In this document: positions 52,596 to 64,000 of the stretch, in pieces
Layout: every line of letters begins with the position of its first letter
How positions within the stretch are numbered: position 1 is the stretch's first letter
Source of the DNA: Pseudomonadota bacterium
Lineage (GTDB): Bacteria; Desulfobacterota; Binatia; UBA1149
Assembly (NCBI GenBank): GCA_014382245.1
Contig: JACNKC010000047.1
Location: 1 to 64,000, forward strand
Direction: 5' to 3'
Length of the DNA: 64,000 bases
Made by a program: the position numbers and the translations under genes
Notes under the pieces: generated by a model
What the model saw: the letters and a program-made list of their open reading frames with translations, nothing else
Told to the model about the DNA's origin: nothing
Database searches by the model: none

Positions 52596-53942
52596 ATGCC
52601 GCGGCCGACCTTTCACCTACTGACCTGCCTGCTGATCCTGGGCCTGTTGATTTCGGCGGCCGGTTGTCGCCTTGAACAAGCGGCGGTCTGCGAGGGCTGC
52701 AACGTTCTGCTGGTGTCTATGGACACGCTGCGCGCCGACCACACGGGTGCTTACGGTTACGGCTTACCGACCACCCCGAAGCTGGATCTGTTTGCGCAGG
52801 AGGCGGTGCTTTTCGAGGACGCCGTGTCGCAGTCCGCCTGGACCCGGCCTGCCCATACCTCGATGTTCACAGGCCTTTACCCCGCGGAACACGGTGTGAT
52901 TTCAATGGAGGGGAACGCAAAAGTGCCAGGCGACCTGCCCACCCTGGCTGAGCGTATGCGCGAGGGCGGCTACGCCACTGCCGCGTTTACCGGTGGCGCT
53001 AACATGTCGGCGCGTTTCGGCTTCGACCGTGGTTTCGACCTCTACAAGAGCCCGGGCAAGCGGATGGGCGAAGGCGTGAAGCCAGCCCTGGACTGGGTGG
53101 ACTCACTGACCGCGGGCAAGCCGTTCTTTCTCTTCGTGCACGGTTTTGAGCCCCACCGACCCTATCGCTCCGAACCCCAGGACCGGCTCGCCCTTGGCCT
53201 CGACTCTCCCCGGCGCAAGGGCTGGGCCTCGGTCTGTGAGAGCGGCAAGAAGCCCGCTGACCTTGACAGGTGGATACTCGAATACGACGCGGCCATTCAC
53301 CGCGGCGACCGGGCCTTCGGACGCCTGCTCAAGGGGCTCTCGGAGCGTGGCCTGGCCGATAATACCGTAGTCATGTTCACCTCGGATCACGGTGAAGAGT
53401 TCTTTGAGCACGGGCATTGCTTTCACCTCTATCGCCTGGATCGCGAGATTGTGCGCGTGCCATTGCTGGTCAGGGTGCCCGGCGTTGAGCCGTCCCGCGT
53501 CGCCGGGGTAGTGCCGGCGTCTGTGGCTGTCGCCTCTACGTTGCTTGACCTCGTCGGGTTGGGCGGGACGGGGTTCGCCGGGGAGTCGCTGGCGCGGCTG
53601 GTCACCGGCGTCGAGAAACCGGCGTTTGAATATGTCGTGAGCGAAACGGGTTCTTCTCGTGTTTCCGGATCATCCGGTAGAAAGGGAGGAGACGTTCGTG
53701 CCATCAGCGGCGACCGCGACAAGCTCGTACACTGGATGGACCAACGGCGACGCGAATACTATGACCTGTCATCAGACCCGGGTGAGCAGGACGATCTCGG
53801 CCGGTCGGCCGAAGCAGATCGCTTGTTTGAGCGATTGCAGCGCTGGACAGGCGAGCATCCACGGCGAGGAACGCAAGAAGCTATCGAGGAGCTTGACCCC
53901 CGGTTGAAACAGGAATTGAGGCAGCTGGGTTACCTGGAGTAG
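52596..53942 (+). CDS. Sulfatase/alkaline phosphatase superfamily lipoprotein with Thr at the nucleophile position
   Basis: A 448-residue lipoprotein (SAAGC lipobox at ~24). Metal-binding VLLVSMDTLRADHTGAYGY and FTSDHGEEFFEHGH mark the alkaline-phosphatase superfamily. The nucleophile segment reads SAWTRPAHTSMFTGLYP. Classical sulfatases have CxPxR with Cys or Ser converted to formylglycine; here the position is Thr (WTRPAH), as in phosphoethanolamine-transferase-like relatives, so formylglycine formation is not expected. It may be a phosphohydrolase or phosphotransferase. It is convergent with the fusion gene at 53961, with only 18 bp between stops. Confidence 0.85.
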   Translation: MPRPTFHLLTCLLILGLLISAAGCRLEQAAVCEGCNVLLVSMDTLRADHTGAYGYGLPTTPKLDLFAQEAVLFEDAVSQSAWTRPAHTSMFTGLYPAEHGVISMEGNAKVPGDLPTLAERMREGGYATAAFTGGANMSARFGFDRGFDLYKSPGKRMGEGVKPALDWVDSLTAGKPFFLFVHGFEPHRPYRSEPQDRLALGLDSPRRKGWASVCESGKKPADLDRWILEYDAAIHRGDRAFGRLLKGLSERGLADNTVVMFTSDHGEEFFEHGHCFHLYRLDREIVRVPLLVRVPGVEPSRVAGVVPASVAVASTLLDLVGLGGTGFAGESLARLVTGVEKPAFEYVVSETGSSRVSGSSGRKGGDVRAISGDRDKLVHWMDQRRREYYDLSSDPGEQDDLGRSAEADRLFERLQRWTGEHPRRGTQEAIEELDPRLKQELRQLGYLE

Positions 53943-53960: not shown

Positions 53961-56507
53961 TTATCGCCCTTGTGCGACGCTGGGCTCCTTGAGCAGCGCT
54001 TCTATAGCGGCCCTGAGCCTGTGCTCGTCGACGCCTGGATCGAAGCCGGTGCTCTGGTAACGGATCATCCCGTCGCCATCGACCAGGAAGGTCGCGGGCA
54101 TCGAGTGCACCAGGTACTTGCCCTTGAGGACAGCCTGGGGGTCGGTTATCACCGGAAAATTGGTTTCGTAGCTTTCCGCGAACTCGATCGACCTGCTGGC
54201 CAGGCTGTCAACACCGACACCTATGACCTGGAAGCCGCGCGGGCCGAATTCCTTGGTGTAGTCGGCCAGGAAGGGGAATTCCTTTTTACATGGCCCACAC
54301 CAGGAAGCAAAAAAGTTGAGCAGCGTGAGTTTTCCCTTGTAGGCGCTCTCGCTCACCGCGTTGCCCTCGGCGTCGGTAGTCGAGAATATCGGCGCCCTGG
54401 TATCGAGCAGGTCGGTAACGTTAGCGCTCAGCATGGAAGCGTCGACGGGTTGCGTGGTTACGTTCTCGTCTGCGCAACAGCGGAAGCCGGTGGTCTTGTT
54501 GCGACTGCCGGGGCCTACCGTCGATGTGCGTCGATTGCAGGCGGCACCCGACTTACTCGAGGCGTAGCCGCCAAGCAGCGTGCGTCGCCCGCGCCCGCTA
54601 TCGGCCCATTCGCCTATGTTGCCAGCGAGGTCGAAAAGGCCCGAGGCGGTGCGGCAGCCCGACCGGCTACCGGTGTTCGAGGGCTCACCGGTCTTTTTAT
54701 CGGCCGAGTCGTTGCAGACACCTTCTTCGTAGTACGGGCCGTAGGGGTACATGCTGCCTTCTATGGCATCGTCGGCAAACAGGCCGTTGGAGTTGTTGTC
54801 TTCTGCTGTTTTGCCGGTGCACGCGCTAACCCATTCGAGTTCGCTGCAAAGGCGCTTACCGGCTGCCCCGCAGGCTTCTTCGGCGCCAAAAAAATCAATG
54901 CGGGCAGGCTCAAGTCCCGGTTGGCTCACCGCTCGACCGTCGCGGGTGATCGCAGCCTCGTAAGGGTCGATCCAGTACGAACCATCGCCGACCGACACCA
55001 TCGAACTGCCGTCGCCAGCGGGCGCTGTCGCGGCCTCGACCTCGGCAGAATCGGCGGCTTCGAGGGCCTTTTCTATGTAGTACTCCAGGATGGAGGCCGA
55101 AGCCGAACCGGTGACCAGCCTGTCGTTGATATAGGTGCGAGGCGTGCCGTATATGCCCGCCCTGAAGGCAGTCTCTACGTCACCGGCGATAGCCGCCTGG
55201 GTGGACTCCGCCTCGAGACAGGAGCGAAAACGATCCATGTCGGCGCCAGCCCCGGCGGCGTAGTCGTCTACCGTCTGCACGTTGAGCGAGGGTTGGTTAT
55301 CGTACATGAGGTCGTGCATTTTCCAGAAGAGTCCCTGTTCGCCCGCACAGTGAGCAGCCCAGGCGGTCTCGCAGGCGACCGGGTGCTTGTCGAAGCCTTT
55401 CATCGAGCGGTTGCACTTTACGTTCATCGGAAAGTGGCGCATGACCAGCCTTACGCGGTCGCCGTACTTGGCCATAACCGTTTTAAACGAATTGGAGAGC
55501 ATCCGGCAGTAAGCGCACTGGAAGTCGGCGTACTTTACGATGGTGACATCGGCATCGGGGTTGCCGAGCCAGAACTCGTTTTCCTTGATGGGGGTTTCGA
55601 ACATGCTCCAGCCTTCGGAAGTCTTTTTTCCGTGGCCCCTCCCAGCGACGATTGGCGGAGCAACTTTTGACGCTTTCGAGGCCGGGGCTGGCTGCTTGTC
55701 GGCCGAGCTCTCAACAGCTGACTCGGAAGTAGCTGACTCGGAAGTAGCTGACCCGGTAGAAGCTGAATCGACCGCGGCAAACTGGGCGTCTATGGCCCCG
55801 CGATAGGCAGCCTCCATCGAGCTGCCGGCGGTGTAGTAAGCCCCGAGCGCGACGCCCGCACTGACACCCACGACCAGCAATGCCTGCGGTATGGGCGCGG
55901 CAAAAGATGCCAGTGCTCGCAGGGGCGCCTTGGCGACCTCGGGCAGGGGAGAGCCCGATGCCTTCCAGGCGAGCAGGAAGGCGGCGAGGTTTACCGTGTA
56001 CAGGCCTATGCAGTACAGGCAGTAGGCGCGTAGCCAGACGGTGGAAACCCAGGCCAGGAAGAGCGAGTAGACCACCGCGATGAGTGCCAGCAGGGCCGTC
56101 GACTGAAGGACGAGACGGGCTTGCTGCAGCGAAACGCTGGTCGCCGTCTTGATGGCCGACAGCGCCTGCACTGCCAGGAAGGCCATCAGGGCGTAAATCG
56201 GAGCGGCGTAAAGGGCGATGGGCAGGCCGAGGAACTCGGAGTAACTCGAAGCGTTAACCTTGTCGCAGTTGAGGGCGCCGCCCAGGTTACAGGAAGAAAC
56301 ATAGCTCGGGTCCAGGCCGAGTTTGAGCTTGTGGCGCACCAGGAAGACAGCCACCGCGAAGCCGACCGCGCATACAGCGACCAGGGCAGTCACCAGTGCC
56401 GGCGCGTACTCGGAAACCCCAGCCTCGGCTTGCTCGTCCGCAGCCGTTTCCAGGGGCGTCGTGTTCCGGGAGGGGCGTTCTTGCTTGGACTTGTTTTTCT
56501 TTGACAT
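53961..56507 (-). CDS. VKOR - DsbA - FGE-like - TlpA four-domain disulfide protein
   Basis: An 848-residue fusion. Residues ~35-185: VKOR-type membrane domain with loop cysteines C73/C81 (SSCNLGGALNCDKVN) and CLYC at 163-166. A low-complexity SATSESA linker follows. Residues ~300-485: DsbA-like thioredoxin with CAYC at 331-334 and cis-Pro GTP (~455). Residues ~500-680: formylglycine-generating-enzyme/SUMF1-like fold (WIDPYEA, GKRLCSELEWVSAC, DLAGNIGEWADS, GFRCC); the usual catalytic Cys pair is not intact. Residues ~700-840: TlpA-like redoxin with WCGPC at 736-740. All domains after the VKOR should be periplasmic. VKOR-DsbA fusions are known; this four-part order I do not recognise. Confidence 0.9.
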   Translation of the reverse strand: MSKKNKSKQERPSRNTTPLETAADEQAEAGVSEYAPALVTALVAVCAVGFAVAVFLVRHKLKLGLDPSYVSSCNLGGALNCDKVNASSYSEFLGLPIALYAAPIYALMAFLAVQALSAIKTATSVSLQQARLVLQSTALLALIAVVYSLFLAWVSTVWLRAYCLYCIGLYTVNLAAFLLAWKASGSPLPEVAKAPLRALASFAAPIPQALLVVGVSAGVALGAYYTAGSSMEAAYRGAIDAQFAAVDSASTGSATSESATSESAVESSADKQPAPASKASKVAPPIVAGRGHGKKTSEGWSMFETPIKENEFWLGNPDADVTIVKYADFQCAYCRMLSNSFKTVMAKYGDRVRLVMRHFPMNVKCNRSMKGFDKHPVACETAWAAHCAGEQGLFWKMHDLMYDNQPSLNVQTVDDYAAGAGADMDRFRSCLEAESTQAAIAGDVETAFRAGIYGTPRTYINDRLVTGSASASILEYYIEKALEAADSAEVEAATAPAGDGSSMVSVGDGSYWIDPYEAAITRDGRAVSQPGLEPARIDFFGAEEACGAAGKRLCSELEWVSACTGKTAEDNNSNGLFADDAIEGSMYPYGPYYEEGVCNDSADKKTGEPSNTGSRSGCRTASGLFDLAGNIGEWADSGRGRRTLLGGYASSKSGAACNRRTSTVGPGSRNKTTGFRCCADENVTTQPVDASMLSANVTDLLDTRAPIFSTTDAEGNAVSESAYKGKLTLLNFFASWCGPCKKEFPFLADYTKEFGPRGFQVIGVGVDSLASRSIEFAESYETNFPVITDPQAVLKGKYLVHSMPATFLVDGDGMIRYQSTGFDPGVDEHRLRAAIEALLKEPSVAQGR
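55716..55760 (-). repeat. 15-bp tandem repeat encoding the Ser/Thr-rich linker
   Basis: AGCTGACTCGGAAGT occurs twice perfectly and once diverged (AGCTGACCCGGTAGA), encoding (S/T)xESAT units between the VKOR and DsbA domains. Such a repeat can change linker length by slippage. Confidence 0.85.
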
Positions 56508-56711: not shown

Positions 56712-57149
56712 ATGAAAACGGTCGGTAGACATCTTCTCATTGAGTTTTACGATTGCGACAGGCCCCTGCTCGATGATCTTGACAGCTTACGTAAAATCAT
56801 GACCGGGGCGGCCGAAACCGTCGGAGCCACCGTAGTAGGCGAAACCTTTCACCGATTCGCGCCCCAGGGGGTGAGCGGTACGGTGGTCATCGCCGAGTCT
56901 CACTTGTCGCTTCATACCTGGCCTGAGAACGGTTACGCGGCGATTGATATCTACACCTGCGGTGGTCTCGTACCGGGCGACGCGTTTGGTTATCTCGCAT
57001 CCAGTCTGCACGCCGGTAGCGCACGCCAACGCGAAATAATTCGCGGCTTGCCCGAGCAGGTCGAGGATGACCGTGTTTTTGAATCGGCTGACGTAGAGGT
57101 CCTGAGCCGGGAGTGCGAGCTGGTCGAGCTGCGCAGGGCCGAGGGCTGA
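56712..57149 (+). CDS. speH: S-adenosylmethionine decarboxylase proenzyme
   Basis: A 145-residue SpeH-type proenzyme. ESHLSLHTWPENGYAAIDIYTCGG contains the autocleavage Ser (H-L-S) that becomes the pyruvoyl cofactor, plus the catalytic His and Cys. GRHLLIEFYDCD is the usual N-terminus. AGGAACAGCA precedes ATG 56712; the track start 56661 is upstream non-coding sequence. It makes decarboxylated SAM for the spermidine synthase encoded next. Confidence 0.95.
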   Translation: MKTVGRHLLIEFYDCDRPLLDDLDSLRKIMTGAAETVGATVVGETFHRFAPQGVSGTVVIAESHLSLHTWPENGYAAIDIYTCGGLVPGDAFGYLASSLHAGSARQREIIRGLPEQVEDDRVFESADVEVLSRECELVELRRAEG

Positions 57150-57220
57150 CAAGCAGCGTGGGATTGCCGGACAAACCTGGGAGCATCGACCAGGCAGCGG
57201 CCCTGCTCGACGGGGGGCTC

Positions 57221-58141
57221 ATGCCGGCGACGCGCGGTGGCTTCGATGGTGAGTGGTTCACCGAGGAGGCAAACGGGTCTGCGCGCTTCGCGGTCAGAAT
57301 GGAGGCGCTGCTCCACGAAGAGCGGTCTCCCTGGCAGAAGATTTCGGTCTACGACAGCAGTTTCTTCGGCAGGGTGCTCACCCTCGACGATGTATTCATG
57401 CTCAGTGAGCGCGACGAGTTTGTCTACCACGAGATGCTCGTTCATGTTCCCCTGCTCGCCATGCCCGACCCCGCCAGCGTTCTTATAATCGGGGGGGGCG
57501 ACGGCGGTTGCCTGCGCGAGGTGTTGCGACATGACTGCGTGCAGAGAGTCGTACTCTGCGAGCTCGATGAGCGGGTAAGCCGGGTCTGCGAGCAGTATTT
57601 TACCTGGCCGGCATCGGCTTTTGCCGACGCCCGGACCGAGTGCGTGTTCGAGGACGGTATTGGCTTCGTCAAGGAGCATCCTGCCGCTTTCGACCTCGTC
57701 ATAGTAGACAGTACCGATCCGGTCGGTGCCGCGATAGGCTTGTTCAGGCGGGAGTTCTACGAGTCTGTGCGCGCTAGTTTGCGTAGTGGTGGAGTGATGA
57801 CCGCTCAGACGGAGTCGCCCCACTGGAACGCCGACATGCTTGGCGCCATAAACCGGGAAATCGGCTCGGCCTTCGCCCAGGTTGATTCCTATCTCGCGAT
57901 GATTCCCACCTACCCCGGTGGTTGCTGGTCCTTGGCCTGGGCCTCGTCTACTCGCCGCCCCGGGGATTTCTTCGACCAGCAACGCGCGAAGGAAATTGCC
58001 GCCTCCTGTTCTTACTACCAGCCCGGTCTCCAGTCGGCTGCCTTCGCGTTGCCGGTGTTTGCCGAGCGCGCTTGCAGTGGCCAGAACCTGTTCGAGCGTT
58101 TTGACAGCAGGGTCTACAAGAACCTTAATCCCGATGACTGA
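57221..58141 (+). CDS. speE: Spermidine synthase
   Basis: A ~306-residue aminopropyltransferase: FTEEANGSARFAVRMEALLHEERSPWQKISVYDSSFFGRVLTLDDVFMLSERDEFVYHEMLVH, SAM-type motif IIGGGDGGCLREVLRH, and DSTDPVGAAIGLFRREFYE (catalytic Asp region). ATG 57221 is preferred; GTG 57158 would add 21 residues. It transfers the aminopropyl group from decarboxylated SAM to putrescine, releasing methylthioadenosine. The 3' end overlaps the next gene by 8 bp. Confidence 0.95.
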   Translation: MPATRGGFDGEWFTEEANGSARFAVRMEALLHEERSPWQKISVYDSSFFGRVLTLDDVFMLSERDEFVYHEMLVHVPLLAMPDPASVLIIGGGDGGCLREVLRHDCVQRVVLCELDERVSRVCEQYFTWPASAFADARTECVFEDGIGFVKEHPAAFDLVIVDSTDPVGAAIGLFRREFYESVRASLRSGGVMTAQTESPHWNADMLGAINREIGSAFAQVDSYLAMIPTYPGGCWSLAWASSTRRPGDFFDQQRAKEIAASCSYYQPGLQSAAFALPVFAERACSGQNLFERFDSRVYKNLNPDD

Positions 58142-58979
58142 TAGCCGCCAGACAGTAGCGGTGATCATTCCGGTGCGCGACCGTATGCAGCTGCTCGGCC
58201 GGGCGCTCGACTCGGTGCTGGCCCAGCTGCGGCCACCCGACGAGATAGTGGTAGTGGATGACGGATCGGTCGACGGCAGTGCTGAGCTGGTGAAGCAACG
58301 CTACCCCGGCGTCAAGCTGCTGGTGCAGGCGCCAGCAGGCGTGAGCGCGGCTCGCAATCGAGGAATCGCCGGTAGCAACTCGGACTGGCTGGCCTTTCTC
58401 GATTCAGACGACGCCTGGCACCCCGATAAGTTGCAGCGACAGTTGACGGCCCTTTCTCAGCGGCCATCGATGAAAATATGCCACTGTGACGAGATCTGGT
58501 TGCGCAACGGCCGGCGCGTGAACCCGATGCGCAAGCACGCGCGTTACGGTGGCTGGGTATTCGAGCGTTGCCTGCCCCTGTGCTGCATATCGCCTTCGAC
58601 TGCCCTGGTCCACCGGGATGTTTTTGCCTCGGTCGGGGTATTCGACGAAACCCTGCCTGCCTGCGAAGACTACGATCTCTGGTTGAGAGTCAGCGCTCGT
58701 TTCCCGGTGCTCTATCTTGACGAAAAACTTGCTACGCGTTGGGGTGGGCACGCCGACCAATTATCTGCGCGCTACCCCGCCATGGACCGATTCAGGGTGA
58801 AAGCACTGGAGAAGGTGCTGCTCCCGGGAACCCTGCAACCCCGCTGGCGCCGCGCGGCGGCGGCCGAGGCGCGGCGCCGACTCGACATTCTCGCCGGTGG
58901 GTCTGAGCGCAGGGGGAGGATGCAGGAGGCGTGTGCGTTCCGTACACGTGCGGCCGAACTAGGCAGGTACCAGCGGTGA
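58134..58979 (+). CDS. Family 2 glycosyltransferase
   Basis: A ~281-residue GT-A fold enzyme: VAVIIPVRDRMQLLGRALDSVLAQLRPPDEIVVVDDGSVDGS, SAARNRGIAGSNSDWLAFLDSDDAWHPDKL (DxD), and CEDYDLWLRVS (catalytic region). It has no TM segment. It would add a sugar from an NDP-donor; acceptor unknown. The start overlaps speE by 8 bp, and the stop overlaps the nucleosidase gene (GTGA), so it belongs to this operon although polyamine synthesis offers no obvious role. Confidence 0.9.
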   Translation: MTDSRQTVAVIIPVRDRMQLLGRALDSVLAQLRPPDEIVVVDDGSVDGSAELVKQRYPGVKLLVQAPAGVSAARNRGIAGSNSDWLAFLDSDDAWHPDKLQRQLTALSQRPSMKICHCDEIWLRNGRRVNPMRKHARYGGWVFERCLPLCCISPSTALVHRDVFASVGVFDETLPACEDYDLWLRVSARFPVLYLDEKLATRWGGHADQLSARYPAMDRFRVKALEKVLLPGTLQPRWRRAAAAEARRRLDILAGGSERRGRMQEACAFRTRAAELGRYQR

Positions 58980-59827
58980 GCGTGGCGACCGTTAACCTGG
59001 TCGTAGCCATGGGCTGTGAAGCCGCGCCCCTGCTGCGTGCCCTTGCTTTGAGGTCGCTGCCGGTCGAAGGCGGCTTCAGGGCCTGGTGTGATGACGCGCA
59101 CGAAACTTTCCTTCTGCAGGCCGGCATCGGCAGGGTCCATGCAGCCGCGGGGGTCGCAACGTTGCAGGAGTTGTCGGGACACCCGGCCTGTTCGGCCTGG
59201 CTCAACGTCGGTATTGCCGGGCACCCAGAGGAGGAGATCGGTCGCGTACTGGTGGCCGAATCTGTTCACGAAGAGGCGGGCGGCAGGGTGCACTACCCGG
59301 CGTTACCCGCGGGCCTGGCCCTGGGAACGGCCCCGCTTCTGACCGTTGACAGACCGAGCAAGGAGTATCGCCCCGGGTTTCTTCACGACATGGAAGGGTC
59401 GGCCTTCATGGCGACGGCCCTGCGCTACTCGAGCACTGAACTCGTGCACTGCCTGAAGGTCGTGTCCGACAACCGGGCCCAGCCCCTGTCAACGGCTGGC
59501 TTGAGCAAGAGCAGGGTCGAGTCCCTGCTCGAACTAGCGGTTGAGGATGTGGTTTCAATGGTGGCTGAGTTGAGGGTCCCAGCCGAGCAGAGGGCAAGCC
59601 GACTCGCGCCGCCGGCCCAGTGGCAGAAGCTGTCCGAAGACTATGCCTGCTCGGTGACCCAGGCCGCCTTGCTCCGACGCTTGCTGCAGCGATGGAATGC
59701 CTTGTTTCCGGGACGAGAGCTTCCGGAGGTGAAGCAGACCGATTCGGCCCGCGGCAGCGCGGCTGGCGAGCTGCTGCGGCAGCTCGAAGCGGGACTCGAT
59801 GAGATGTGGCAGCGGGACGGCCAGTGA
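58976..59827 (+). CDS. MTA/SAH-type nucleosidase / nucleoside phosphorylase-like protein
   Basis: A 283-residue protein of the purine nucleoside phosphorylase/MTAN superfamily: NLVVAMGCEAAPLLRAL, LLQAGIGRVHAAAGVATL, AWLNVGIAGH, HDMEGSAFMATAL (ribose-binding Met-Glu) and KVVSDN (catalytic Asp). It starts at GTG and overlaps the glycosyltransferase. In this setting it could salvage methylthioadenosine from SpeE or 5'-deoxyadenosine from the radical SAM protein that follows. The C-terminal ~70 residues are an extension not typical of MTAN. Confidence 0.8.
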   Translation: MSVATVNLVVAMGCEAAPLLRALALRSLPVEGGFRAWCDDAHETFLLQAGIGRVHAAAGVATLQELSGHPACSAWLNVGIAGHPEEEIGRVLVAESVHEEAGGRVHYPALPAGLALGTAPLLTVDRPSKEYRPGFLHDMEGSAFMATALRYSSTELVHCLKVVSDNRAQPLSTAGLSKSRVESLLELAVEDVVSMVAELRVPAEQRASRLAPPAQWQKLSEDYACSVTQAALLRRLLQRWNALFPGRELPEVKQTDSARGSAAGELLRQLEAGLDEMWQRDGQ

Positions 59828-60861
59828 TCGAGACCATTTATATTGAGAGCGAGCTGCTCGAGCATCCCCGGGCCCGGGCCGTCATGAAGCGTCTGCCCCG
59901 CGCCCGGGTCGTCAGCTGCGATCACTACGGCGAGGTTTTCAATCCCCACGCCCAGGATTTTCGCCTGCAGAAGGAGAACCCTGCCCTGCTGATAGCTCGC
60001 AAGCGCGGCCGCATGGTCCTGCCGGTGCCGCCGGGGTCGGGTATCGGGGCAGAACAGGACTTCTATTTTTCCCACTTGCTCAACTGCCCCTACGACTGCC
60101 GCTATTGTTTTCTGCAGGGCAGTTACAACTCGGCTGGCCTCGTACTCTTCGTTAACTACGAAGACTTCATGACGGCGGTGGACGAACGCATCGGCGAACT
60201 CGGCGATGGTGAACGGGCGTGCTTTTTTTCGGGATACGACGGTGATTCGCTGGCTCTCGATGCGGTCACCGGTTTCGCGGGAGAGTTTCTCAGTTTCTTT
60301 GAGCAGCGCCCGCGCGCGTGGCTCGAGCTGCGCACCCGCTCGGTTAATACGGCTGCACTGCTGGCGCGGGAGCCGATTGATAATTGCATAGTGGCTTTCA
60401 GCCTTTCGCCTCCCGCGGTTGCCGATCGCCTCGATATCGGCGCTCCTCCGGTTCGCTCACGCCTGAAAGCAATGGCGGGGCTCGCGCGGGCCGGTTGGAA
60501 ACTTGGCGCGCGGCTCGACCCGCTGTTGTTTCACGATGGCTGGGAGCAGGGCTACACGCAGCTGATCGCTGATCTTTTTGCCTGCGTGCCGACTTCGTCG
60601 CTGCACTCCCTGTCGTTGGGGCCGCTGCGCTTTCCGCCCAAAGTACTGGAGAAAATGAGGCGGCTTCATCCCACGGACCCCTTGCTCGCCGCTCCTACCG
60701 AGGAATGGCTGGGCGCTCGGGTTACTCCGCGAGATATTCACGAACAGATGCAACGGCTCTGCCTGGAGGCTCTGCCTGCCTCGCTGGATAAGTCCCGGGT
60801 GTTCTGCTGGCCGGCCAATGAGGGGGTCACGAGCGAGGAGCAGCCGCGACTCGCTGTGTGA
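59824..60861 (+). CDS. Spore photoproduct lyase-like radical SAM protein
   Basis: A 345-residue radical SAM protein: IETIYIESELLEHPRARAVMKRLPRARVVSCDHYGEVFN at the N-terminus, then CPYDCRYCFLQGSY (Cx3Cx2C cluster motif near residue 92), and CFFSGYDGDSLALD. This is the SplB family. The organism shows no sign of sporulation here; non-spore-former SPL homologues exist, with unknown or repair roles. It starts at GTG 59824, overlapping the nucleosidase stop (GTGA). Confidence 0.87.
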   Translation: MIETIYIESELLEHPRARAVMKRLPRARVVSCDHYGEVFNPHAQDFRLQKENPALLIARKRGRMVLPVPPGSGIGAEQDFYFSHLLNCPYDCRYCFLQGSYNSAGLVLFVNYEDFMTAVDERIGELGDGERACFFSGYDGDSLALDAVTGFAGEFLSFFEQRPRAWLELRTRSVNTAALLAREPIDNCIVAFSLSPPAVADRLDIGAPPVRSRLKAMAGLARAGWKLGARLDPLLFHDGWEQGYTQLIADLFACVPTSSLHSLSLGPLRFPPKVLEKMRRLHPTDPLLAAPTEEWLGARVTPRDIHEQMQRLCLEALPASLDKSRVFCWPANEGVTSEEQPRLAV

Positions 60862-60958: not shown

Positions 60959-61426
60959 ATGAGCAGAAAGGCTGAAACAGACGCGACCAAGGGCATTCTG
61001 ACCGCACCCTACGTCCTTGAGTACAGCTATACGCGCAGCACCGGTCCCGTGCTGGGTCGTTTTTTCAGCGGTTTACGCGACAAGAAGATCGAAGGAATAC
61101 GGGTCGCGGACGGACGCGTCCTGGTTCCGCCCGTTGAAACCGACCCTGTCACCGGCGATGAACTCGATGAGTTCGTGCAGGTGGGTGAGATTGGAACAGT
61201 CACGGCTTGCAGCTGGCTTGCCGAGCCGCGGGCCGAACATCCCCTCGACAAGCCCTTCGCGTGGGCACTGGTACAGCTGGACGGAGCCGACACCGGGCTC
61301 CTGCACGCCGTTGACTGCGGCAGCGCAGAAAATCTTGAGGTCGGAAGCCGGGTGGAGGTGTCCTGGCGTGACGAGAGGCACGGTTTCATCACCGACATTG
61401 AGTGTTTCAGGTTGCTGGGAGACTGA
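60959..61426 (+). CDS. DUF35 OB-fold protein (first copy)
   Basis: A 155-residue protein: LEYSYTRSTGPVLGRFFSGLRDKKIEGIRVADGRVLVPPVETDPVTG then the OB-fold VGEIGTVTACSW...PFAWALVQLDGADTGLLHAVDCG and VEVSWRDERHGFITDIECF. DUF35 proteins usually have an N-terminal Cys4 zinc ribbon; here the Cys residues are absent. They act as partners of thiolase-like enzymes (for example in archaeal HMG-CoA formation and in steroid side-chain aldolases). It starts the four-gene cluster. Confidence 0.85.
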   Translation: MSRKAETDATKGILTAPYVLEYSYTRSTGPVLGRFFSGLRDKKIEGIRVADGRVLVPPVETDPVTGDELDEFVQVGEIGTVTACSWLAEPRAEHPLDKPFAWALVQLDGADTGLLHAVDCGSAENLEVGSRVEVSWRDERHGFITDIECFRLLGD

Positions 61427-61917
61427 TGGCTGAAGATCCCATAACGGGCATCGTGTGCCCCATACGGCTCGACTACACGATCACGCCGGGTAGGGCGCAG
61501 ACCCGTTTTCTCAGGGGCCTCGAAAGCGGCAAGCTGCTGGGCCAGCGCTGTCCGGCCACCGGCAAGGTCTACATGCCGCCACGAGGTTCATCGCCCACGC
61601 ATGGTCTACCTACCACCGAGGAGGTCGAGGTAGCCGACAGGGGAACAGTCACTACATTCTGCGTAGTGAACCTCCAGTTTGCTTCGACCGTCCGCGAGAT
61701 TCCCTACGTGTGCGCGCAGATACTACTCGACGGCGCCGACATTCCGTTTTTCTTCGTCGTTCAGGAAGTCGACGTAAACGAAATACGCATGGGCATGCGC
61801 GTTGAGGCTGTCTGGAAAGATCCCTCCGAGTGGGGCCCGACGCTTGAGAACATCTTGTTTTTCAAGCCGACCGGCGAAGCCGATGCTTCCCGGGAATCTT
61901 ACAAGGAGCACGTCTGA
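61426..61917 (+). CDS. DUF35 OB-fold protein (second copy)
   Basis: A 163-residue paralogue: TPGRAQTRFLRGLESGKLLGQRCPATGKVYMPPRGSSPTHG, where the zinc ribbon is reduced to a single Cys (family: RCxxCG...CPxC), and the OB-fold RGTVTTFCVVN...VCAQILLDGADIPFFFVV...VEAVWKDPSEWGPT. The start overlaps the previous stop (TGATG). It is likely the acyl-CoA-channelling partner of one of the thiolases that follow. Confidence 0.87.
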   Translation: MAEDPITGIVCPIRLDYTITPGRAQTRFLRGLESGKLLGQRCPATGKVYMPPRGSSPTHGLPTTEEVEVADRGTVTTFCVVNLQFASTVREIPYVCAQILLDGADIPFFFVVQEVDVNEIRMGMRVEAVWKDPSEWGPTLENILFFKPTGEADASRESYKEHV

Positions 61918-62978
61918 TGCGCGACGTAGCCGTGGTTTCGTTCGCCCAGGCGCCCAACCTGCGGTCAGACCGTGAGCGCAACGAAGTCGAGATTGTCATG
62001 CCGGTGGTGCGCGAGGCTCTGGACAGCGTTGGCCTTGAACAGAGCGACATCGGTTTCACCGTTTCGGGCAGCTGCGATTACCTCACCGGGGTGCCGTTTT
62101 CTTTCGTCATGGCCCTCGACGCGGTCGGCGCCTGGCCGCCGATTGAAGAGAGCCACGTAGAGATGGACGGAGCCTGGGCCTTGTACGAGGCCTGGGTCAG
62201 GCTTCAGCATGGAGATATCGACGCTGCCTTGATTTACAGCTTTGGCAAGACCTCGCTCACGGATCTCGACAAGGTAATGAGCTGCCAGCTCGACCCATAC
62301 ACGCTCATGCCGCTTTGGCCTGGTGCTATCAGCCTGGCTGGCCTGCAGGCCAGCGCCATGCTCGCCGCGGGTACGGTCAGCGAAGCCGATATGGCCGCCG
62401 TGGCTTCGCACAGCCGCGAAGCGGCCCAGGGCACCCCGGAGATTCCCGAAGCGGAAGGTCCCGCCGACGTTGACGATCTGCTGTCGCGACCACGCGTGGC
62501 GCATCCTCTGCGTGAGCACGACATAGCGCCTGCCACCGATGGCGCAGCCGCGATCGTGCTCGTGGCTGGCGACCGCGCCGCAGAGGTCTGTGACAAGCCG
62601 GCGTGGATAAGCGGTATTGACCACAGGGTGGATACCCACGCGCCAGGCAACCGCGACCTGACCACCTGCCCGTCGGCGCGAATGGCCGGCGAGCGCGCGG
62701 ATGTCGGCAGGAGCCACATCGAAGTCGCAGAGGTCTACGCGCCGTTTTCTCACCAGGAGCTGCTCCTGGCGAGCGAGCTTGGTCTTGGCGACGGGGTGGA
62801 TGTTAACCCCTCGGGTGGCGCGCTGGCGGGCCACACTTTCATGGTGGCGGGGCTCGCGCGCATAGGCGAAGCTGCCCGTCGCATTCACGACGGCACCGCC
62901 ACGAGGGTGCTGGGGCACGCGACGGCTGGGCCCTGCCTGCAGCAGAACCTGGTCTGCGTTATGGAGGCGGCCCGATGA
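61917..62978 (+). CDS. Thiolase-like protein (lipid-transfer/Ltp type)
   Basis: A 353-residue thiolase-superfamily protein: DVAVVSFAQAPN at the start, DVNPSGGALAGHTFMVAGLARIGEAARRI near the C-terminus and LQQNLVCVMEA. The N-terminal catalytic-Cys region reads HVEMDGAWALYEAWVRL, lacking the CGSG-type nucleophile. Such nondecarboxylating members include the SCPx/Ltp retro-aldolases that pair with DUF35. It overlaps genes on both sides by TGATG and ATGA. Confidence 0.87.
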   Translation: MRDVAVVSFAQAPNLRSDRERNEVEIVMPVVREALDSVGLEQSDIGFTVSGSCDYLTGVPFSFVMALDAVGAWPPIEESHVEMDGAWALYEAWVRLQHGDIDAALIYSFGKTSLTDLDKVMSCQLDPYTLMPLWPGAISLAGLQASAMLAAGTVSEADMAAVASHSREAAQGTPEIPEAEGPADVDDLLSRPRVAHPLREHDIAPATDGAAAIVLVAGDRAAEVCDKPAWISGIDHRVDTHAPGNRDLTTCPSARMAGERADVGRSHIEVAEVYAPFSHQELLLASELGLGDGVDVNPSGGALAGHTFMVAGLARIGEAARRIHDGTATRVLGHATAGPCLQQNLVCVMEAAR

Positions 62979-64000
62979 GCGAGCTCTGCGCTGTTACGGG
63001 CGTCGGCCAGACCCACCACGACGCTGAACGCAGCGACCTGTCCATGCACGGACTGGTGCGCGAAGCCGCGGTGCGAGCCCTGGCTGACGCCGGCCTCGAA
63101 TGGAAAGACATAGACGCGGTGGTGGTAGGCAAGGCGCCTGACCAGTTCGAAGGCGTAATGATGCCCGAGCTGATGATGGCCGACGCTCTGGGTGCGGTCG
63201 GTAAGCCACTGCTGAGGGTGCACACCGCCGGCAGCGTGGGCGGCTCGACCGGCCTGGTGGCGGCCAAACTGGTGCAGGGAGGCGTACACAAACGCGTGCT
63301 GGTGGTGGCCTGGGAGAAGCAATCCGAGGCCGACGCATCCTGGGTACTGATGATGAAAATTCCCTTTGCGGCTCCGCTGGTAGCGGGAGCGGGCGGTTAC
63401 TTTGCGCCCTATATCCGCGCTTACATGGAGCGTTCGGGGGCACCGAAAGATACGGGCATAAAGGTGGCCGTCAAGGATCGGCTTAACGCTCTCAAGAACC
63501 CTTACGCCCACCTCAAGATGCCCGATATCACCGAGGAGATGGTGGCTGACTCGCTGATGCTCTGGGACCCCATACGCTACCTTGAGACCTGCCCGTCTTC
63601 GGACGGGGCCTGCGCGCTGGTGTTGACCGCCGAGGACGCTCTTGGAAGCTGCGAAAAACCGGCCTGGGTGGTGTCGACCGCCATGCGCAGCGAACCCACG
63701 ATGTTCGCGGGCCGCGACGGCGTGAATCCCCAGGCCGGGATAGATTGCGCGGCTGAACTCTACCGAAAGGGGGGCATCACCGACCCGCGGCGGGATATAG
63801 ACGTGGCTGAAATATACGTTCCCTTCAGCTGGTTTGAGCCGATGTGGATGGAGAACCTGGGTTTTGCCGAGCAGGGCGAGGGCTGGAAGATGACAATGTC
63901 GGGTGCAACCGCGCTCGATGGCGATATGCCCATAAATGCGTCGGGCGGTGTGCTTTCCTCCAATCCCATAGGCGCGTCAGGTCTGCTGCGCTTTGCCGAG
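62975..64000 (+). CDS. Thiolase-like protein, second copy, 3' end beyond the window
   Basis: 342 codons without a stop up to the window edge; the ORF track omits it. It starts SELCAVTGVGQTHH, has LLRVHTAGSVGGSTGLVAAKLVQGG (nucleophile region with Ala/Gly/Ser, no Cys), VAEIYVPFSWFEPMWMENLGF (catalytic His region altered) and INASGGVLSSNPIGASGLLRFAE. It is probably missing about 30-40 residues. It pairs with the preceding thiolase-like gene (ATGA overlap), so the two may form a heteromeric enzyme with the two DUF35 proteins. Confidence 0.87.
   Translation, partial: MSELCAVTGVGQTHHDAERSDLSMHGLVREAAVRALADAGLEWKDIDAVVVGKAPDQFEGVMMPELMMADALGAVGKPLLRVHTAGSVGGSTGLVAAKLVQGGVHKRVLVVAWEKQSEADASWVLMMKIPFAAPLVAGAGGYFAPYIRAYMERSGAPKDTGIKVAVKDRLNALKNPYAHLKMPDITEEMVADSLMLWDPIRYLETCPSSDGACALVLTAEDALGSCEKPAWVVSTAMRSEPTMFAGRDGVNPQAGIDCAAELYRKGGITDPRRDIDVAEIYVPFSWFEPMWMENLGFAEQGEGWKMTMSGATALDGDMPINASGGVLSSNPIGASGLLRFAE

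Follow-up and report, generated by a model that had tools for sequence, protein, structure and literature searches.

A stretch of 64,000 nucleotides (hereafter the window; positions 1 to 64,000 of GenBank contig JACNKC010000047.1), from a 2.9-Mb genome belonging to Binatota (UBP10), carries on one strand, in this order, speH, speE, a GT2 glycosyltransferase gene, the gene of a nucleosidase (NUC) and the gene of a radical S-adenosylmethionine (SAM) protein similar to spore photoproduct lyase (SPL). We propose that NUC and the SPL-like protein constitute one functional unit, a radical SAM enzyme equipped with its own adenosine hydrolase of the type of 5'-methylthioadenosine/S-adenosylhomocysteine (MTA/SAH) nucleosidase (MTAN), and we place the probability of this reading at about 0.6. 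The NUC-SPL pair is found again in several phyla of bacteria and has the look of a chemical module not described before; a search of the literature on SPL with nucleosidase, ParB, Fusobacterium or short-chain dehydrogenase/reductase (SDR) turned up no account of one.

NUC and the SPL-like protein occur together

The phylum of the window (297 genomes) was searched in depth and its class was sampled with 148 genomes; other phyla were sampled through plasmid and phage collections, which hold seemingly misfiled chromosomal sequences. Class and phylum labels are those of the search tool. Among the SPL matches in the 297 genomes, six score 287-505 bits and none of the others exceeds 175 bits; full-length NUC (>100 bits) is present in exactly the six genomes that hold the higher-scoring group, the NUC-type SPLs (G000, G002, G297, G208, G085 and G232). 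In five of the six the NUC and SPL genes overlap or almost touch; in G232 the two are split between contigs that have a VapC-like gene in common, and so are close but interrupted. In Fusobacterium vincentii, NUC, a helical segment and SPL form a single open reading frame (ORF) of 623 aa (L066:7098-8969), and in L069, a contig from human faeces that is catalogued as phage, the NUC and SPL genes are separate, overlap each other and are followed by an SDR gene. Wherever it was found, NUC-type SPL adjoins NUC or is fused to it, one split locus excepted. The preliminary description of this DNA had assigned the nucleosidase to the radical SAM enzyme, and the Fusobacterium fusion together with the six-of-six co-occurrence lend this contextual support. 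It had also suggested a survey of relatives for the same gene order; there the NUC-SPL pair indeed recurs, but speH and speE were found next to it only within the genus.

In the class survey NUC-type SPL was seen only in the genus of the window, which suggests that the genus acquired it horizontally. A scan of genome contigs matched only a relative within the genus (UBP10_UBA1149), whose SPL-like protein is 95% identical. No relative was returned by the plasmid collection when searched with the NUC protein (P0003), or by IMG/VR when scanned with SPL and fusion queries. As regards the records themselves, two GenBank entries named 'Bacteriophage sp.', L069 (MT835770.1) and L070 (MT835514.1), resemble pieces of bacterial chromosome, and L066 (NZ_CP084075.1) is a chromosome-like Fusobacterium record of 2.1 Mb filed as a plasmid.

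NUC is related to MTA/SAH nucleosidases

NUC (58976-59827, + strand, as are all features of the locus given below; 283 aa) is an MTAN-like protein with a helical segment at its C-terminus. A profile built from NUC relatives gives a probability of 96.8 (E 2e-10) against E. coli MTAN, and the matches of NUC in a profile search of the PDB are MTA/SAH nucleosidases, the best at 1.6e-8; a relative from G208 scores 32.1 bits with PF01048. Three sites are invariant in seven NUC proteins: Glu15 (codon 59018-59020), equivalent to Glu12 of E. coli MTAN; Asp138-Met139-Glu140 (59387-59395), in which Met139-Glu140 correspond to the ribose-binding Met173-Glu174; and Asp165 (59468-59470), the counterpart of Asp197, the residue of N7 protonation. 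These profile matches and invariant active-site residues agree with the MTA/SAH-nucleosidase type proposed earlier, and, judging from its sequence, NUC is probably a hydrolase-type, adenosine-directed nucleosidase.

Besides the active-site Glu, Met-Glu and Asp that it shares with MTAN (Pfs/MtnN), NUC shows clear differences: it has a shortened middle region, it adjoins an SPL-like protein or is fused to one, it falls under the MTAN cut-offs (21 against 169 for PRK05584, the MTA/SAH nucleosidase equivalog) and it carries the extra C-terminal helical segment. This segment (about residues 205-283; 59588-59824) follows the nucleosidase domain in all NUC proteins compared and is kept in a truncated NUC described below. 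Homology between it and the ParB-type X protein of related loci was considered and not found (hhalign probability 0.3-1.5).

The SPL-like protein lacks the H-atom donor of SplB

The SPL-like protein (59824-60861, 345 aa) passes the gathering score of the broad SPL family (PF20903, 65.2 bits against 27), and in a profile search of the PDB it matches SPL structures only (E 2e-21). With SplB (TIGR04070, PF20903; PDB 4FHC, 4K9R) it has in common the radical SAM domain and the CX3CX2C motif that binds [4Fe-4S]/SAM (Cys88-Cys92-Cys95; 60085-60108), which occupies the same alignment columns. Unlike SplB, it has a Tyr (Tyr138, codon 60235-60237) in the column of the Cys that serves as H-atom donor (PMC8326336). 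Ten NUC-type proteins have Tyr (nine) or Phe (one) at this position, where the ParB-type sister subtype has Glu or Asp and SplB has Cys.

The family models and the phylogeny agree with this difference. The score with the SplB equivalog is low (67.2 bits against 400), and so is that with TIGR03886 (73.6 against 437.55), a family which also comprises SPL-like radical SAM proteins from organisms other than spore formers. In a maximum-likelihood tree the ten NUC-type SPLs form one clade (support 100/99), nested in a larger SPL-like group (100/99) from which both SplB and the TIGR03886 proteins are excluded. The partners differ as well: SplB is partnered with SplA and NUC-type SPL with a nucleosidase, and no nucleosidase was seen near TIGR03886 genes in the three neighbourhoods read.

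An enzyme repairing spore photoproduct or another UV lesion, that is, a DNA photoproduct lyase with merely incidental neighbours, would be consistent with the Pfam score, the conserved CX3CX2C motif and the PDB matches, and also with the ParB-like protein, a member of a DNA-binding family, that accompanies the sister subtype. We nevertheless regard this explanation as quite improbable, because the donor Cys is replaced in all NUC-type members, these fall outside the SplB clade and score far below TIGR04070, and their linkage is to a nucleosidase and not to sporulation genes. By membership the protein is not a spore photoproduct lyase, and with Tyr or Phe in place of the donor Cys, repair of spore photoproduct is unlikely; the change of the catalytic Cys to Tyr and the separate clade point to an enzyme that would act on something else, as the preliminary description had supposed. 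This has a practical side, since NUC-type proteins pass the Pfam model 'Spore photoproduct lyase' and are likely annotated accordingly, yet do not have the catalytic Cys.

The spermidine genes are neighbours within one genus

Upstream of NUC lie speH/speD (56712-57149), for S-adenosylmethionine decarboxylase (145 aa; TIGR03330, 132.9 bits against 75.65), speE (57221-58141), for spermidine synthase (306 aa; TIGR00417, 283.3 against 249.55; PRK00811, 328.6 against 260), and the GT2 gene (58134-58979; 281 aa; PF00535, 98.5 bits against 23.3). SpeH and SpeE are both above their equivalog cut-offs, and speH is the sole AdoMet_dc gene of the genome. A gap of 71 bp separates speH from speE, whose best start is the ATG at 57221, conserved within the genus; from there on the genes overlap, by 8 bp (speE/GT2), 4 bp (GT2/NUC, GTGA) and 4 bp (NUC/SPL, GTGA), so that the same-strand run of five genes and its overlaps stand as first described. 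Start contexts and overlaps are identical in both other genomes of the genus (three genomes in all), and dN/dS values of 0.07-0.26 show purifying selection on all five. Such overlaps are possible in 15 of the 36 tandem gene pairs of the window, however, and being this common they are a sign of compact packing more than of function. A promoter-like site inside speH scored no better than chance.

The preliminary description held that the nucleosidase removes the MTA released by SpeE, which would make the five genes a polyamine operon. The common strand, the overlaps conserved in three genomes and the MTAN-like nature of NUC are compatible with this, as is an AdoMet decarboxylase gene accompanied by an arginase-family gene 2-4 kb from NUC-SPL in G208 (L089, 12537-13912, - strand), although these lie on the opposite strand and may be there by coincidence. 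Elsewhere in the genome of the window, however, there is a canonical MTA phosphorylase gene (TIGR01694, 321.2 bits against 274.85), which is followed by a PfkB-type kinase gene, and the genome also encodes SAH hydrolase (AhcY); with these two enzymes the MTA from SpeE needs no further one. In addition, at 28 loci from other genera of the class, neither speH nor speE turned up in the 8-10 kb or so around the SPL-like gene, nor is either one close to it in Fusobacterium or the two faecal contigs; their adjacency to it was found only in the genus of the window, and NUC is linked with SPL rather than with speE in every other lineage observed. We therefore consider a role of NUC in polyamine synthesis very unlikely, and treat the spermidine genes as a genus-level operon neighbour that stands outside the conserved unit and has no biochemical need for NUC. 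A function of NUC as the SAH or MTA nucleosidase of the cell was rejected as unneeded, given MTA phosphorylase and AhcY.

A neofunctionalised SpeH acting as ornithine decarboxylase (PMC10407285) was also considered; as the genome has a single speD and a single speE, an ordinary AdoMet decarboxylase is likelier. No ornithine or arginine decarboxylase of the pyridoxal phosphate (PLP) fold-III type was seen in the genome of the window, where the only PLP fold-III decarboxylase found (L140, G000:C97:19526-20263) is LysA-like and lies directly 5' of a DapF-like gene.

GT2 accompanies SPL-like genes in Binatia

Ten Binatia genomes were searched with the GT2 of the window (P0002). Each gave one match well above all others (196-260 bits, the runner-up at no more than 94), a clear orthologue that in every case is the SPL-adjacent gene. 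At all 28 Binatia loci GT2 lies upstream of the SPL-like gene, which supports the view that it belongs with such genes. A protein of 160-190 aa is usually found between the two at these loci, and its counterpart elsewhere in the phylum has the N-terminal domain of ParB (PF02195, 44 bits). At one locus (L037, G052:C8) a single uninterrupted ORF encodes both GT2 and the ParB-type C-terminal X protein. Within Binatia, the five-gene run and this cassette of GT2, ParB-like protein and SPL share an orthologous GT2 that neighbours an SPL-like protein, but the middle gene of the cassette is of ParB type, or its C-terminal part, instead of a nucleosidase, and the cassette SPL belongs to the Glu/Asp subtype. 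No orthologue of the window GT2 was detected in non-Binatia genomes with NUC-type SPL (93 bits or less). The genus of the window thus joins the GT2 of Binatia with the NUC-SPL pair of another clade.

A different combination is found in a genome of the same order (G011; L041, G011:C245, 3320-6269), where a nucleosidase domain distinct from NUC (PF01048, 34.9 bits) is fused to GT2 at its N-terminal end, and genes for a ParB-type and an SPL-like protein come next. That GT2, nucleosidase and SPL-like proteins meet in varied arrangements argues for a shared pathway.

Possible reactions of the pair

In the functional unit that we propose, the SPL-like enzyme would cleave SAM to the 5'-deoxyadenosyl radical and act on a substrate other than spore photoproduct, and the resulting adenine nucleoside would be hydrolysed by NUC at its N-glycosidic bond. 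In the likelier case this nucleoside would be plain 5'-deoxyadenosine (5'-dAdo), removed on the spot with relief of product inhibition; alternatively, NUC may act on a 5'-adenosylated product, as in the synthesis of menaquinone and hopanoids. GT2 would probably take part in the same pathway in Binatia, perhaps by glycosylating the product. A requirement for removal of 5'-dAdo by MTAN has been described for E. coli biotin synthase (PMC6302742).

Several observations weigh against the proposed unit. NUC taken alone lies below every family cut-off (PF01048, 19.2 bits against 25.1), AlphaFold models of NUC and SPL, made with two near-identical sequences as input, had pLDDT values of 38 and 46 and were unusable, and within the phylum ParB-type SPLs lack a linked NUC, apart from the nucleosidase-GT2 fusion in G011. 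With genuine SPL, SAM is regenerated and there is no 5'-dAdo left over. Moreover, contig L070 has an intact SPL beside a truncated NUC that has lost the catalytic N-terminal half, so the nucleosidase activity may be dispensable. This last case slightly favours removal of 5'-dAdo, because a housekeeping enzyme could substitute for NUC in that role. The truncated NUC (L070:5505-5987) is located between an SDR gene and the intact SPL-like gene.

In MqnE/MqnB and HpnH/HpnG, adenosylation is followed by removal of adenine, and these systems have, like the pair studied here, a radical SAM enzyme with a dedicated nucleosidase or phosphorylase. They differ in that the radical SAM enzymes are of another family and in that no quinone or hopanoid genes lie alongside NUC-SPL; moreover, NUC scores 26.1 bits against a cut-off of 124.7 with the model of the futalosine hydrolase MqnB (TIGR03664). 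By analogy, the SPL-like enzyme could add 5'-deoxyadenosyl to an acceptor, NUC could remove the adenine, and an SDR (elsewhere) or GT2 (here) could finish the product. Evidence for this comes from the dedicated, fused nucleosidase, from the presence of NUC beside a housekeeping MTA phosphorylase and AhcY in the genome of the window, and from the additional partners. An SDR gene adjoins SPL or truncated NUC at five loci outside the genus (L066, L069, L070, L091 and L109), and the four SDRs compared (all but that of L109) are orthologous, with 37-50% identity; after the SDR, G085 encodes a WbsX-type glycosyltransferase (Pfam match) and G232 has an ORF similar to one, while Binatia have GT2. Futalosine hydrolase is also the nearest NCBIfam model to P0003, although this match is very weak and, as seen, far under its cut-off. 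The truncated NUC of L070 speaks against an adenosylation step, and the evidence listed in its favour also fits removal of a by-product, for which reasons we hold adenosylation to be possible but doubtful. Equally tentative is its extension to an undescribed radical SAM pathway in Binatota, phylum-level relatives, Fusobacteriota and probably Bacillota, in which an SPL-fold enzyme with Tyr for the H-donor Cys would add or use 5'-deoxyadenosyl on an acceptor, the fused nucleosidase would strip the adenine, and an SDR or glycosyltransferase would complete the product.

Irrespective of which case applies to the NUC-SPL unit, a fused nucleosidase offers a direct handle on the chemistry of this radical SAM branch, a free by-product as against a new product, and the naturally fused NUC-SPL protein, like the adjacent pair of a non-pathogenic relative, is a compact target for expression.

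Other genes in the window

On the - strand, 53961-56507 encodes an unusual fusion protein of 848 aa with VKOR, DsbA-like thioredoxin, FGE-sulfatase-like and TlpA/AhpC-TSA domains, and the adjoining gene (52596-53942) encodes a sulfatase. Downstream of the SPL-like gene (60959-64000, + strand) there is a pair of paralogous ChsH2-type OB-fold genes and, after them, two thiolase-like genes recognised by eye; together they make up a separate acyl-CoA cluster.

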